Origin: a virus
Virus record (IMG/VR): IMGVR_UViG_3300034279_000160
Span: 1-20,767 of that record
Length of the DNA stretch: 20,767 nt
Strand: one strand, 5' to 3'
The position numbers and the translations under genes were made by a program. The notes beneath the pieces are model-generated. The model ran no database searches, was not told the origin of the DNA, and saw only the letters and a list, made by a program, of their open reading frames with translations. Of the stretch, positions 5,257 to 15,153 are shown piece by piece. Every line of letters starts with the position of its first letter. Position 1 is the stretch's first letter.

Positions 5257-5727
5257 ATGGCTGCTGCTGTAGGTTTGTTGGTTAGTGCTGGTGCTGGTAT
5301 CTTCGGTATGGTCCAGCAGAATAAGGCTATTAAGGCGCAGGAGAAGGCTGCAAGAGAACAGAGAGCTTTGCAGAGGGGTGCTGATGCCCGTGAAAGACGG
5401 CGTATGCTTCGTGAACAGGCAATTGCAAGTGGTCAGACAGTCAACGTAGCCGCACAGGTTGGTGCTGGTCAGGGTCCGACAGCAAGTACAGCACTGACTG
5501 GTGGTCTCTCTGGTCTTCAGAATCAGGTTCTCTCTGCTACTGCTTTCCAAGGCATGACTGCTGAGAGTATGAAGAGACAACAGGCTGCTCTTAATCAGGC
5601 TGCTAAGTATCAGCAGAGTGCTAGTATTGCGGCTGGTATCGGATCTCTTGGTTCCTCCATTGGTGACTTTGCTTCTGGCCTACAGAGAACTAACTTTAGA
5701 TTTCCGAGTTTTGGACAGGTTGTATAA
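5257..5727 (+). CDS. Internal virion protein, T7 gp14-like (ejected channel component)
   Basis: This 156-residue protein has a hydrophobic N-terminus (residues 1-18, MAAAVGLLVSAGAGIFGM). A long Ala/Gln/Arg/Glu helix follows (residues 20-62, 'QNKAIKAQEKAAREQRA'). Then comes a Gly/Thr-rich linker, a second helix with 'QQAALNQAAKYQQ', and a small-residue stretch (SIAAGIGSLGSSIGDFASGL) near the end. That pattern is the one seen in T7 gp14-type proteins, which leave the virion first and help form a channel across the outer membrane. T7 gp14 is slightly longer (about 196 residues). The start has AAGGAAA ahead of it, and the stop overlaps the next ATG (TAATG). Gene order before two large ejection proteins supports the call. 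Confidence 0.7.
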   Translation: MAAAVGLLVSAGAGIFGMVQQNKAIKAQEKAAREQRALQRGADARERRRMLREQAIASGQTVNVAAQVGAGQGPTASTALTGGLSGLQNQVLSATAFQGMTAESMKRQQAALNQAAKYQQSASIAAGIGSLGSSIGDFASGLQRTNFRFPSFGQVV

Positions 5728-12365: not shown

Positions 12366-13091
12366 ATGGAACTTTATAAACCAATTATAAATGAAGATAG
12401 AGCTTTTACTAATGTAACTGTTCAAGAGCCTAGCAAAACAGATACATCTTCTGATGCTATTTACATGCTTGGTCAGTCTATTGCTAAAGCTCTAAGTCAA
12501 TTTGGTGGGGAAAGACTAGCTGTAGAATCTCCGGAAGTTATTCAGCAAGCTCAGGCTGAAGCTGTTGTTACTCCTCAACCTGCTCAGATAAATGATACTG
12601 GTAGAGTGAACGATGGTAGGGTTCAGACTGTAACTGATACCGCTCTTCCGTTAGAGGCTAAAGCCTTCCTTGATACTATCTCAAGGTATGAGTCGAGGGG
12701 GTATAATATTATCGTCGGAGAAGGACGGTATGGCGCTCCTGCTACATTCTCAGACTTTACAAAACATCCTAATGTAATTGGCATGAGGACTATTGCTGGT
12801 CCTAGTACTGCTGCTGGTAGATACCAGTTTGTCTATAAAACTTGGAAGGCTCTGCAACAGCAGTATCCCGGTCAGTTTACAGACTTTACTCCTGTTACTC
12901 AGGATAGGGCTGCTTGGAGATATGCACAGGATGTCTTTAAGCAAAGGACAGGACAGGATCTCCTATCTGTTTTAAGAGAAGGTGGGGTAGGCTCTGCACA
13001 GACTTTCCTGAAGAATATCTGGATTGGTTTTGGTCTTGATCCGAATGTAATGGAAACTTACAATCAAGCTTTTAAGAGGTATACATCATAA
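12366..13091 (+). CDS. GH104 lambda R-like lytic transglycosylase, probably virion-associated
   Basis: This 241-residue protein has a catalytic half (about residues 98-235) that follows phage lambda endolysin R step by step: 'FLDTISRYESRGYNIIVG' with the likely catalytic acid E109, 'FSDFTKHP' (128-135), 'STAAGRYQF' (147-155), 'DFTPVTQD' and 'KNIWIGFG'. Enzymes of this family (GH104) cleave the MurNAc-GlcNAc bond of peptidoglycan without hydrolysis. The first 95 residues are not part of lambda R. They are Gln/Val-rich and begin with 'LYKPIINE...TNVTV', like the N-terminus of the preceding ejection protein. There is no signal peptide or membrane anchor. With no holin nearby and a gene order inside the ejection cluster, a role in opening the wall at infection is more likely than lysis, though lysis cannot be excluded. 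Confidence 0.8.
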   Translation: MELYKPIINEDRAFTNVTVQEPSKTDTSSDAIYMLGQSIAKALSQFGGERLAVESPEVIQQAQAEAVVTPQPAQINDTGRVNDGRVQTVTDTALPLEAKAFLDTISRYESRGYNIIVGEGRYGAPATFSDFTKHPNVIGMRTIAGPSTAAGRYQFVYKTWKALQQQYPGQFTDFTPVTQDRAAWRYAQDVFKQRTGQDLLSVLREGGVGSAQTFLKNIWIGFGLDPNVMETYNQAFKRYTS

Positions 13092-13363
13092 TGGCTATCG
13101 AATATCGTGGTGAAAGATTTGCTGGGTACAATAAACCTAAGAGAACACCGAATGCAGGGAAGTCTCACGCTGTCCTAGCTAAAGAGGGTAGCACTGTTAA
13201 GCTTATCCGCTTTGGTCAGCAGGGTGTCTCAGGATCTCCTAAGAAGGCTGGGGAGTCTGCATCGTATAGGAAGAGGCGTGAGTCCTTTAAGGCTAGACAT
13301 GCGAAGAATATTTCTAAGGGCAAGATGTCTGCTGCCTATTGGGCTGATAAGGTAAAGTGGTAA
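13091..13363 (+). CDS. Small basic phage protein ('KMSAAYW' family)
   Basis: This 90-residue, very basic protein reads 'RFGQQGVSGSPKKAGES', then 'KARHAKNISKGKMSAAYW' and ends 'ADKVKW'. I recognise this as a small conserved family of environmental tailed phages, usually annotated as hypothetical or structural; its biochemical role is not known to me. Its composition (Lys, Arg, Ser, Gly) suits binding to DNA or RNA or to an acidic partner in the virion. The ATG overlaps the previous stop by one base (TAATG) and its own stop overlaps the next ATG in the same way, so translation is coupled. It is the first of a run of short basic genes. Confidence 0.7.
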   Translation: MAIEYRGERFAGYNKPKRTPNAGKSHAVLAKEGSTVKLIRFGQQGVSGSPKKAGESASYRKRRESFKARHAKNISKGKMSAAYWADKVKW

Positions 13364-13500
13364 TGGCAAAGCAAGGTCTTTACGCTAACATTTGGGCTAA
13401 GCGAAATGCTGGCAAGAAAATGAGGAAGAAGGGTGAGAAAGGCGCACCTACAGATAAAGCCTTTAGGGAGGCTGCTAAGACAGCAAAGAAAAAGAAATGA
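13363..13500 (+). CDS. 45-residue basic protein ('KQGLYANI.AKR' family)
   Basis: This very short gene encodes 45 residues starting 'MAKQGLYANIWAKRNAGKKM', followed by 'RKKGEKGAPTDKAFREAAKT' and a lysine tail. I know the pattern 'QGLYANI.AKR....KMRK.G.KGAPT' from small phage proteins found near structural genes. The reading frame begins at an ATG that overlaps the previous stop (TAATG) and ends at TGA 13498-13500, which overlaps an ATG (ATGA). About two fifths of the residues are Lys or Arg. No function is known to me. It is easily missed because of its length, but the conserved motif and coupling on both sides make it a real gene. Confidence 0.75.
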   Translation: MAKQGLYANIWAKRNAGKKMRKKGEKGAPTDKAFREAAKTAKKKK

Positions 13501-13525
13501 TGACAACAAACAATACTGGTAATTT

Positions 13526-13534
13526 AAGAAGGAG
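13526..13534 (+). promoter_or_regulatory. Strong ribosome binding site that selects an internal start
   Basis: AAGAAGGAG lies seven bases before ATG 13542. It is one of the best sites in the window and argues that translation of this frame starts here rather than at ATG 13497, 45 bases upstream. Confidence 0.7.
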
Positions 13535-13541
13535 TTCTATT

Positions 13542-13799
13542 ATGCCGGGAAAAGGTCAGCCGTATAAGAAGCCAATGAAGAAGACAGTGCCGAAGCCGAA
13601 GGCAATGAGGAAAATAGACCCCTATGCTGAAGGTATTGATCCTTCTGCTGGTGCTGGTGTACCACTCAGTGCGTATAGAGAGTCTGTTCCTACGCCCCGT
13701 ATGAAGCCCTCAAGACCTCAGACAGTTAATAGAGTTGGTAAGGGTGATTTCCTCATGCCCTCTAATACTGGTAAGAAGGTTTACAGGAGAATGAAGTAA
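13542..13799 (+). CDS. Small basic Pro/Lys-rich protein carrying one PQTVNR module
   Basis: From ATG 13542 this gives 85 residues, beginning 'MPGKGQPYKKPMKKTVPKPK'. The frame is open back to ATG 13497 (100 residues), but the strong site at 13526-13534 favours the shorter form. It is rich in Lys and Pro and probably mostly disordered. Near its end 'RPQTVNRVGKGDFLMP' repeats, at protein and DNA level, the module that occurs in tandem in the gene at 14141-14902. The two genes therefore share ancestry or a binding partner. I do not recognise a wider family. The stop overlaps the next ATG (TAATG). Confidence 0.65.
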   Translation: MPGKGQPYKKPMKKTVPKPKAMRKIDPYAEGIDPSAGAGVPLSAYRESVPTPRMKPSRPQTVNRVGKGDFLMPSNTGKKVYRRMK

Positions 13800-13984
13800 T
13801 GGCTAAGAAGCCAACGAAGCAACAGAAGAAGATTTCTAAAGTAATGAGAGAGTTCAAGGCTGGTACTCTCCATGCTGGTGTAAATCCGAAGGGGCCAAAG
13901 AAGGCTAAAATAGTTAAGAATCCGAAACAGGCTATTGCTATCGCGCTTTCTGAAGCTGGTGTAAAAAGAAAAGGAAAAAGATAA
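13799..13984 (+). CDS. DUF6496-like small basic protein
   Basis: This is a 61-residue protein: 'KKISKVMREFKAGTLHAG', then 'KIVKNPKQAIAIALSEAG' and a basic tail. The combination 'K..KVM.EFK.G.L..G......V.N.KQA.AIALSEA' is the pattern I associate with the DUF6496 family, found in phages and also in bacteria, of unknown function. About a third of residues are Lys or Arg. Both ends are coupled to neighbours by TAATG overlaps. The part 'NPKQAIAIALSEAG' should form an amphipathic helix. Its place in a chain of similar short basic genes suggests a shared job, perhaps DNA or capsid binding, but this is inference. Confidence 0.75.
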   Translation: MAKKPTKQQKKISKVMREFKAGTLHAGVNPKGPKKAKIVKNPKQAIAIALSEAGVKRKGKR

Positions 13985-14139
13985 TGGCTAAGAAGTCTAT
14001 GAGACATGGTATGAAGGAAGAGAAAGCCGAGATGAAGGGCGGTAAGTATCGTGGTGGGTATAAGGAAGAGATGGCTGAGATGAGAGCCATGAAGAAGCCC
14101 GCTAAGAAGAAGAAGTCTTCTGGTAAGAAGGGTAAGTAA
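13984..14139 (+). CDS. 51-residue Lys/Met/Glu-rich protein
   Basis: This short gene encodes 51 residues: 'MAKKSMRHGMKEEKAEMKGG', 'KYRGGYKEEMAEMRAMKKPA', then a lysine/serine tail. It has seven Met and a strongly alternating charge pattern that would form a helix. The ATG overlaps the preceding stop (TAATG) and the stop TAA 14137-14139 is one base before the next ATG. I do not recognise a family. The regular coupling, the composition shared with its neighbours and the absence of any gap support a real gene, although direct evidence is thin at this length. Confidence 0.6.
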   Translation: MAKKSMRHGMKEEKAEMKGGKYRGGYKEEMAEMRAMKKPAKKKKSSGKKGK

Positions 14140-14140
14140 G

Positions 14141-14902
14141 ATGGATAAGGCAACATATCTTAACTCTCTTAAGAAGAAGAAGAAGAAAACAGATTCTTCT
14201 GCCAAACCTCAGACAGTGAATAGGACTGGTAAGAGTGATGTAATTAAACCTCAGACAGTGAATAGGACTGGTAAGAGTGATGTAATTAAACCTCAGACAG
14301 TGAATAGGACTGGTAAGAGTGATGTAATTAAACCTCAGACAGTGAACAGAGTTGATAAGGCAACATATCTTAACTTTCTTAAGAAGAAGAAGAAAGTAGG
14401 GGTAGAAGAAGGTCTTACTTCTGCATATGAATATGGGAAGGCTAAGATTAAACAGGCTTACGAAGCAGCTAGTAGACCAACTGGAACAAGCGCGCTTATA
14501 CCTACTAAAGCCAAGACAGCTAAGTCGGAAGGTCCGGGTAGAATGGGTAGTCAGACTATTACTACTGCTAAGACTAGATCTTCTGTTGGTGGTCCCGGTG
14601 CTGCAAGAGCATTGGAGGATAGACCATCAGTATCCGCTACTGCTGCAACTGCTGGTCCGGGTAGAATGGGTAGTCAGACTGTTACTGCTCCTAAGAGAAT
14701 CGGTGTTAATGCCACTCCTCCCGGTGGTCCTCCTTCAGGTACAAGACCATCAGTAGCCGCTGCTGCTGCAACTGCTGCTTCCGCAGTTAATAACAAAGGG
14801 GCTGCACCAAAAGGTACAACCCCTACTAAGCGTTATAAGAATGCCCGTGAGAGACGTATGGCTGAGAGGTACGCTATCGGTACTTCCGGTAGACCTATGT
14901 AA
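14141..14902 (+). CDS. Repeat-containing basic low-complexity protein, last late gene
   Basis: This is a 253-residue protein of three parts. Residues 1-21 are 'MDKATYLNSLKKKKKKTDSS' plus Ala. Residues 22-63 are three exact copies of a 14-residue unit (KPQTVNRTGKSDVI), then a fourth start 'KPQTVNRVDKATYLNFLKKK', which restates the N-terminus. Residues 131-212 hold two imperfect 41-residue copies beginning 'GPGRMGSQT'. The tail is Ala-rich and then basic (RYKNARERRMAERYAIG). No enzyme or membrane motif is visible and much should be disordered. It is the last gene of the rightward module, two bases from the stop of the converging gene. Its 3' part also contains the hairpin that I read as the terminator of the leftward transcript. 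Function unknown. Confidence 0.75.
   Translation: MDKATYLNSLKKKKKKTDSSAKPQTVNRTGKSDVIKPQTVNRTGKSDVIKPQTVNRTGKSDVIKPQTVNRVDKATYLNFLKKKKKVGVEEGLTSAYEYGKAKIKQAYEAASRPTGTSALIPTKAKTAKSEGPGRMGSQTITTAKTRSSVGGPGAARALEDRPSVSATAATAGPGRMGSQTVTAPKRIGVNATPPGGPPSGTRPSVAAAAATAASAVNNKGAAPKGTTPTKRYKNARERRMAERYAIGTSGRPM
14144..14395 (+). repeat. Direct repeat pair flanking the 42-base tandem array
   Basis: About 41 bases starting at 14144 recur starting at 14354 with one clear internal difference (ctct against tttc), coding DKATYLN-x-LKKKKK both times. The copies are 210 bases apart, exactly five times the 42-base unit that lies between them, which suggests one duplication history for the whole region. Confidence 0.85.
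14204..14350 (+). repeat. 42-base tandem repeat, three exact copies and a partial fourth
   Basis: Units at 14204-14245, 14246-14287 and 14288-14329 are identical; 14330-14350 begins a fourth that then diverges. Each unit codes KPQTVNRTGKSDVI. The absence of silent differences means the copies are recent or kept identical by slippage or recombination. A diverged single copy lies in the gene at 13542-13799 (about 13714-13758). Confidence 0.95.
14531..14776 (+). repeat. 123-base imperfect tandem repeat, two copies
   Basis: Copies at 14531-14653 and 14654-14776 code 41 residues each. Both start with 'GPGRMGSQT' and end with 'RPSV.A.AATA'; the middles have diverged. The first 27 bases are identical in both. 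Divergence here, against identity in the 42-base array, suggests an older event. Confidence 0.85.
14787..14824 (-). terminator. Intrinsic terminator of the leftward module, inside a + strand gene
   Basis: In leftward RNA, 14824-14813 pairs with 14808-14797 to give a 12-bp stem with a UUUU loop, followed by UUGUUAUUAAC. Two pairs (14802 with 14819, 14805 with 14816) are G.U in leftward RNA but C.A mismatches in rightward RNA, so the stem is complete only for - strand transcripts. It lies about 80-110 bases past the stop of the last leftward gene, within the coding sequence of the repeat gene. Confidence 0.65.
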
Positions 14903-14904
14903 GA

Positions 14905-15153
14905 TTAGAACTCGTACATATTAGCCATGATACGGGTCTTAGCTAGTTCCAACTGGAGGAATACTTCCTCTGGAGTTAGTTCAGAAGACCAGCTAATGCG
15001 GAAGTGTTCATCACTCCATCCAACTAGGATGAGGCTATCGTAGGATACGCTGCCAGCCTCTTTAAGAAGCTGCTTAGGATTAACCCCTTGGATCTTTTCC
15101 GAGGGGTTATTCTTTTGTACCAGCTTTACAACCTTCTCGTTATCGTCACTCAT
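14905..15153 (-). CDS. Small hypothetical protein downstream of nrdJ
   Basis: This is an 82-residue protein with an acidic N-terminus (MSDDNEKVVKLVQK). A central 'SLILVGWSDEHFRISWSSEL' strand pair is followed by a C-terminal helix 'TPEEVFLQLELAKTRIM'. Similar short proteins ('VKLV.K.....', then 'VGWD...', then 'LLE.AK..L') are common in tailed phages next to replication genes, but I know no function. Its ATG overlaps the nrdJ stop by four bases (ATGA), so the two are co-translated. It is the last leftward gene. Its coding sequence contains the hairpin that I read as the terminator for the opposite, rightward transcript, which constrains residues about 15-25. Confidence 0.75.
   Translation of the reverse strand: MSDDNEKVVKLVQKNNPSEKIQGVNPKQLLKEAGSVSYDSLILVGWSDEHFRISWSSELTPEEVFLQLELAKTRIMANMYEF
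15081..15116 (+). terminator. Intrinsic terminator of the late (rightward) module, inside a - strand gene
   Basis: Bases 15081-15091 pair with 15099-15109 to give an 11-bp stem with a 7-base loop, followed by TTCTTTTG. The pair 15089 with 15101 is U.G in rightward RNA and A.C in leftward RNA, so the full stem forms only in rightward transcripts. It lies about 180 bases beyond the last + strand stop, within the coding sequence of the small protein after nrdJ. Confidence 0.7.

Follow-up and report, generated by a model that had tools for sequence, protein, structure and literature searches.

What do six small, strongly basic genes do when they stand one behind another at the end of a phage late operon? 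The window analysed here is the whole 20,767-base stretch of IMG/VR virus record IMGVR_UViG_3300034279_000160, a fragment of a Cobavirinae-like podovirus, and six such genes in tandem (g1 to g6; 90, 45, 85, 61, 51 and 253 amino acids, aa) occupy the right end of its late arm. On balance, we lean towards reading this cassette as a source of late accessory proteins of head assembly, a role that is likely for three of the six genes (g1, g2 and g4). By sequence comparison the cassette is not one family; it combines known but unnamed families (g1, g2 and g4) with orphans (g3, g5 and g6). The genes and the lysis-type gene before them are as follows.

12366–13091, plus strand: lys, a 241-aa putative lysozyme/endolysin-like protein (phrog_90 endolysin, expectation value (E) 1.9e-19)
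13091–13363, plus strand: g1, 90 aa, net charge +16, phrog_7595 family
13363–13500, plus strand: g2, 45 aa, net charge +13, phrog_16028 family
13542–13799, plus strand: g3, 85 aa, net charge +15, orphan; alternative start at 13497
13799–13984, plus strand: g4, 61 aa, net charge +17, DUF6496 (PF20106)
13984–14139, plus strand: g5, 51 aa, net charge +13, orphan Lys/Gly/Met-rich peptide
14141–14902, plus strand: g6, 253 aa, net charge +35, orphan repeat protein

An earlier note, made from the letters of this DNA alone, had described six coupled, Lys/Arg-rich genes here, three of them resembling phage families of unknown function, and had suggested DNA condensation, packaging help or inner-core filling. 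All six open reading frames (ORFs) lie where it placed them, and its lengths hold if g3 starts at the second of two ATGs (13542), closely preceded by AGAAGGAG; a start at the first (13497) would make the product 100 aa long. The tight coupling it described holds for most junctions: TAATG joins lys, directly upstream, to g1, and also joins g1/g2, g3/g4 and g4/g5 (four of six junctions). The other two differ, as g5 and g6 are 1 nucleotide (nt) apart and g2/g3 form an ATGA overlap only with the upstream ATG of g3, a start at 13542 leaving a 41-nt gap. The basic character was borne out, with net charges of +13 to +35 summing to +109, isoelectric points of 10.3 to 11.4 and 20 to 37% lysine plus arginine. 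Thirteen of 14 comparison genes of the window carry net charges of -17 to -1 (the other, at 5257–5727, is +9), and thus the basic run does not reflect background composition. Promoter-like sites in this stretch are fewer than in shuffled sequence (2 versus 4.8), so an internal promoter is not indicated, and terminator-like sites number 8 versus 2.2.

The strongest pointer to the head comes from g1. It belongs to phrog_7595 (E 1.6e-37, residues 2–90 on profile positions 6–96 of 96) and resembles members such as KBS-S-2A CPKG_00042, P12053L gp37 and HMO-2011 gp69 over its whole length; it differs in having five more basic genes behind it. Relatives occur in 152 phage records by tblastn, mostly marine (cyanophages, roseophages, HMO-2011 and ICP1-like Vibrio and Aeromonas phages), and in at least 596 stretches of viral contigs. 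In several phages the g1-type domain is fused to head proteins. ICP1 gp125 carries a Peptidase_S78_2 protease at residues 37–160 (E 2.1e-9) with the g1 domain C-terminal to it at 184–261, whereas the g1 domain comes first in PhAER-4 00088 (75–150, protease 176–287, E 4.4e-19) and CRP-6 gp55 (23–91, protease 108–228, E 7.2e-18). Thus, it can lie on either side of an XkdF-type protease (PF14550). A g1-type domain between portal and MuF is also a feature of phrog_220 ('minor head protein and DNA pilot') and of the CL131 gp012 polyprotein, where it lies at 535–604 (portal 60–419, MuF 991–1103). Non-iterated matches of g1 reach E 9e-8 for ICP1 gp125 and 8e-10 for PhAER-4 00088, and phrog_7595 matches the same proteins at 6.5e-11 and 5e-12. 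Unlike these fusions, g1 of the window is free-standing and has no Peptidase_S78_2/XkdF protease domain, nor any Pfam match at E up to 1.

Among 80 loci collected with an alignment of the ICP1-type domain, domain and protease form one ORF in eight (six domain-first, two protease-first). Free g1 genes can also sit beside head genes: a match to the scaffold family phrog_206 lies directly downstream of g1 in the cyanophages KBS-S-2A (3.3e-25) and MED4-117 (3.7e-28). Nineteen annotated records with the domain were opened, and in eight it is fused to or near head genes (four protease or portal fusions, three beside head or head-completion genes and one between head and other structural genes). A twentieth, unannotated record, ct2KA10, has g4 directly before g1. 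The protease, the portal-MuF polyprotein and the scaffold neighbours share the prohead interior, and thus we take g1 to be a candidate docking or minor head protein of the prohead. In ICP1 itself, gp125 is a protease by prediction only, and presumably releases the scaffold, according to the accessible parts of the sources (PMC9040626, PMC10945586 and PMC12987554 for the prediction; PMC9040626 for scaffold release).

The g1 family core is rich in aromatic residues and glycine, with 22 invariant columns among 69 sequences. An AlphaFold2 model of g1, of middling confidence (predicted local distance difference test, pLDDT, 74; predicted template modelling score, pTM, 0.55), contains two helices along with two beta hairpins, and confidence ranged from 74 to 44 across the five models. 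Its best matches in a viral structure library were two unnamed proteins (E 8.4e-6 and 3.5e-5), followed at 0.0046 to 0.011 by a ChaB-named, an unnamed and an XkdF-named protein (XkdF at 0.011). Sequence searches of solved structures gave chance-level rows only (best E 0.16 for g1; profiles 0.14 for g1, 0.23 for g4 and 1.2 for g2), those of g1 being ribosomal protein L24. Two multidomain proteins are worth recording. CL131 gp012 (L212:3417-7598) is 1393 aa long and also holds a domain named InPase in Pfam, and Melnitz-3 gp18 (L397:2348-4300; 650 aa) has its g1-type domain close to the C-terminus, together with DUF5824 and a region resembling cytidylyltransferases.

The relatives of g2 and g4 lead to the same part of the genome in several phages. 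g2 belongs to phrog_16028 (E 1.1e-14, residues 1–44 on profile positions 1–49 of 50), whose members are longer than g2 in the segment after AKR, and g2-type proteins occur in 81 of 50,697 phage records. In the three T7-like phage maps opened (P-SCSP1u, HTVC201P and S-CBP1; cyanophages and pelagiphages), the g2 relative lies in the capsid module, either flanked by the capsid gene on one side and scaffold or psbA on the other, or placed between the capsid and tail-tube genes. g4 belongs to DUF6496 with 38.5 bits against a curated cut-off of 24 (37.1 bits in a six-frame search), and its AlphaFold2 model is a two-helix domain (pLDDT 80.6, pTM 0.61). Its relatives occur in at least 590 viral-contig stretches and, according to the query used, in 9 to 13 phage records; one adjoins the portal gene in ctjtQ328, and that of S-CBS4 lies between portal and protease/major head protein. 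These assignments to phrog_7595, phrog_16028 and DUF6496 bear out the three family resemblances proposed before.

DUF6496 proteins are also encoded by single chromosomal genes in diverse cultured bacteria (Chitinophaga, Sphingomonas, Flavobacterium and others). Among 80 DUF6496 loci from bacterial genome records, a major-head-protein homologue lies within about 4 kb in seven, g1 in four and g2 in three, which marks some of these loci as phage or prophage. The top rows of neighbours of bacterial DUF6496 genes held no common non-phage gene other than DUF6496 and its antisense frames, and a literature search found no mention of the family.

In a minority of viral loci, g1, g2 and g4 are again found close to one another; the set is not obligatory. 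The strongest linkage is that of g2 with g4. Among the best 80 of at least 590 stretches matching g4, 17 contain g2, in every case on the same strand and in 16 within 50 bp; 13 of these pairs share an exact 4-nt overlap, in both orders (seven and six). Additionally, the two are one ORF in ctYwJ313 (L125:6686-7027, Manatee Spring). Among the best 80 of at least 596 stretches matching g1, g2 occurs in 13 and g4 in 19, no more than 1 kb away in 12 and 15 of them, respectively, and without exception on the same strand. With anchors clustered at 90% identity, g2 is found in 10 of 35 g4 clusters and 12 of 50 g1 clusters, and g4 in 17 of 50 g1 clusters; at 80%, g4 is found in 5 of 14 g1 clusters. All three genes occur together in nine loci beyond the window's own group in these first g1 and g4 sets, and in two more among bacterial genome records (L234 and L240). 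Thus, the coordinated set that the earlier note proposed is partly upheld, for g1, g2 and g4 in a minority of loci, while g3, g5 and g6 are confined to this lineage as searched. Random gain and loss without any common context, the outcome that was to count against such a set, is not what the relatives of g1, g2 and g4 display.

The orphan half of the cassette behaves differently. g3, g5 and g6 have no PHROG family, and g6 gave a single chance-level Pfam row (E 0.36). The three were found only in the near-identical contig L130 (the same contig as L128), with g6 also in a sister contig, L131; for g3 and g5 this covers the loci collected here and a whole-cassette blastn, with no single-gene search of public collections. 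A blastn search with lys plus cassette against the 50,697 phage records returned 22 records, the best ten listed covering 7 to 11% of the query. A PQTVNR-type motif is common to g3 (one copy) and g6; this motif, the 42-bp repeats in g6 and a predicted terminator of the opposite operon inside g6 are features beyond those noted earlier. The repeats of g6 are arranged as follows, with longer imperfect repeats downstream of the 42-bp array.

14204–14346, plus strand: 42-bp tandem repeat array in g6, 3.4 perfect copies of KPQTVNRTGKSDVI
14144–14184 and 14354–14394, plus strand: 41-bp outer repeat (DKATYLN..LKKKKK) flanking the array, 98% identity

Aligned over 8,093 columns, contig L130 and the window differ by no mismatch and by a single gap of 84 bases, exactly two 42-bp units fewer in L130. 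This difference may be copy-number variation or assembly collapse of the 143-bp array. L131 is 97.3% identical over 5,565 columns and carries a different segment in the middle of g6 (L131:38-565). g6 therefore changes faster than any other piece here, subject to the limits of short-read assembly. A 109-aa ORF in another frame of g6 (14427–14756) is broken in L131 and was rejected as a gene.

How would such a cassette serve the head? The head reading starts from gene order, coupling, charge, families, fusions and neighbourhoods, all of which are directly observed; from these, we infer that the products are probably located inside the head, and would contact DNA and dock on the portal or scaffold. 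All six proteins would be made late from one messenger RNA by coupled re-initiation. g1, a small folded domain, is most likely a minor head protein that, when free, docks inside the prohead, and g2 and g4 are probably small basic partners co-loaded with it. g3, g5 and g6 would be lineage-specific, largely unstructured polybasic proteins that act by charge as internal filler or in local DNA contact, which is the simplest guess from their charge and operon position. The proposal of packaging help or inner-core filling thus gains support from the genome context of g1, g2 and g4, through fusions and through capsid or packaging modules of several unrelated phages, and finds no such context for g3, g5 and g6.

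Several observations weigh against a role in the head. Only the operon ties g3, g5 and g6 to it. The ICP1-type domain is unfused in 72 of its 80 loci by the one-ORF test, and none of these 80 loci has g2 or g4. In the annotated records outside the head-linked group, g1 lies upstream of terminase genes (4 of 19), next to lysis genes (4 of 19) or elsewhere (3 of 19; CRP-902, Melnitz-3 and immuto). In P12053L, ICBM2 and SIO1, relatives of the window, the place of g1 is outside the capsid module, near the lysis genes that close the late arm. DUF6496 is a single chromosomal gene in all ten bacterial genomes examined, which were chosen for carrying it, and thus need not be a head protein. Clustering anchors at 80% leaves g2 in only 4 of 15 g4 clusters and 5 of 14 g1 clusters, and none of g1, g2 and g4 appears in 34 tail-anchored loci, which mostly stop short of the cassette. 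Finally, a PDB fold search with the g1 or g4 model returned nothing at E 0.001 or better, and VIA-align Z scores, up to 2.7 for g1 and 2.8 for g4, are not significant; we draw nothing from this absence.

Virion proteomics for the cassette families was not found in the literature searched, ICP1 virion protein lists lying in supplements beyond that search. In their accessible text, the P-SCSP1u electron cryomicroscopy paper (PMC10575957) yielded neither the g2 product nor proteomics, the cobavirus paper (PMC6775973) contains no mass spectrometry, and the cyanopodovirus and P-SS2 papers (PMC4646655, PMC9860041 and PMC2784084) make no statement on the g1, g2 or g4 families.

The alternative that survives best, though we consider it unlikely, is that the cassette is no functional unit: the late arm would end in a hot spot for hitch-hikers, with small basic genes, some of bacterial origin, arriving and being lost. 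Five of the six genes are absent at this place in P12053L, ICBM2 and SIO1, g3, g5 and g6 are orphans, g6 differs between near relatives, and DUF6496 is chromosomal in the ten selected bacteria. However, this does not account for the recurrent same-strand, overlapping adjacency of g2 and g4, with g1 close by, in diverse loci, nor for the domain fusions.

Somewhat less probable still is DNA condensation, in which the six proteins would coat or compact the packaged genome as counter-ions, in the manner of protamines. Six strongly basic products of a single late operon fit this idea, as do g5 and g6, which appear unstructured and Lys-rich. However, to neutralise a genome of 40 kb, the size assumed here, would take about 734 copies of all six, and a g1 with a conserved aromatic- and glycine-rich core and a predicted fold, whose domain in ICP1 is part of a protease, does not resemble a simple counter-ion. 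Bulk charge neutralisation by the cassette looks unlikely.

The position behind lys raises a further alternative, that the part of the spanin is taken over by some of the small basic peptides, as disruptin-like disruptors of the outer membrane. P12053L has two spanin-like genes (PHROG 3e-5 and 0.0079) between endolysin and g1, whereas in the window g1 comes immediately after lys, and neither a lipobox nor a transmembrane stretch is seen in the genes beyond lys; according to the accessible part of one report, 13% of such phages are without spanins, and disruptins are short amphipathic cationic peptides (PMC12819732). We regard this as improbable, because the window is a fragment beyond which spanins may lie, the peptides, though short and cationic, do not look like the amphipathic helices that this role calls for (V/I/L/F/W/Y make up 4% of g5, and the best 18-residue segments of g2, g4 and g5 have mean Eisenberg hydrophobicities of -0.38, -0.51 and -0.63 with moments of 0.46, 0.60 and 0.49) and the g1, g2 and g4 families recur near capsid genes.

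g1 may have relatives well beyond phages. Tlr6f is kept in nearly all polinton-like viruses without any known domain (Yutin et al. 2015, PMC4642659), and is also present in several virophages, many giant viruses and some phages, its function being unknown (PMC4642659, PMC12220804); a DUF5754 protein has been named in an algal virus (PMC12085832), all as given in the accessible parts of these sources. DUF5754 (PF19058), the Tlr6F family, matches 35 of 69 g1-family members weakly (best E 0.0029), with unrelated families at similar E-values (22 members for DUF6321, 17 for a tail-tube family). In 76 phage or viral records, DUF5754 gives 16 matches with E no higher than 1 (best 3.2e-4), every one colinear and within a g1-family gene; 3 to 4 of 14 control genomes also match at that E-value. 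Most g1-bearing records have no DUF5754 match, g1 of the window has none, and none of the 76 records passes the cut-off of 27.4 bits, the best relative (in locus L125) reaching 15.9. Genuine DUF5754 members were found in none of 793 bacterial genomes (395 + 398) at E 1e-5. The likeness is thus place-specific and sub-threshold. We tentatively raise the possibility, doubtful on present sequence matches, that the g1 domain is the phage branch of Tlr6F/DUF5754 and that the fusions would reveal the family's role, as a docking module of the interior of the assembling capsid across unrelated capsid folds. Were the link true, findings on g1 would bear on a family conserved in nearly all polinton-like viruses. 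Within phages, g1, g2 and g4 are among the very common unannotated genes of aquatic phages, and through its fusions g1 gains a first concrete hypothesis of function, at the prohead interior.

The rightward genes of the window form the late arm by gene-by-gene family matches, sharing with the cobaviruses P12053L and ICBM2 the order tail protein, tail appendage, acetyltransferase, internal virion proteins and lysozyme-like gene. The tail appendage shares 41% identity with its SIO1 counterpart, and the lysozyme-like gene, lys, has no Pfam match. Ribonucleotide reductase, a metallo-phosphoesterase and a Cas4-type exonuclease lie on the leftward arm. Two strong terminator-like hairpins mark the meeting of the arms.

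14797–14824, minus strand: hairpin of the leftward operon, 12 pairs, within the g6 coding sequence
15081–15109, plus strand: hairpin of the late operon, 12 pairs, within the convergent ORF 14905–15153

The two hairpins face each other, each inside the last gene of the opposite operon.

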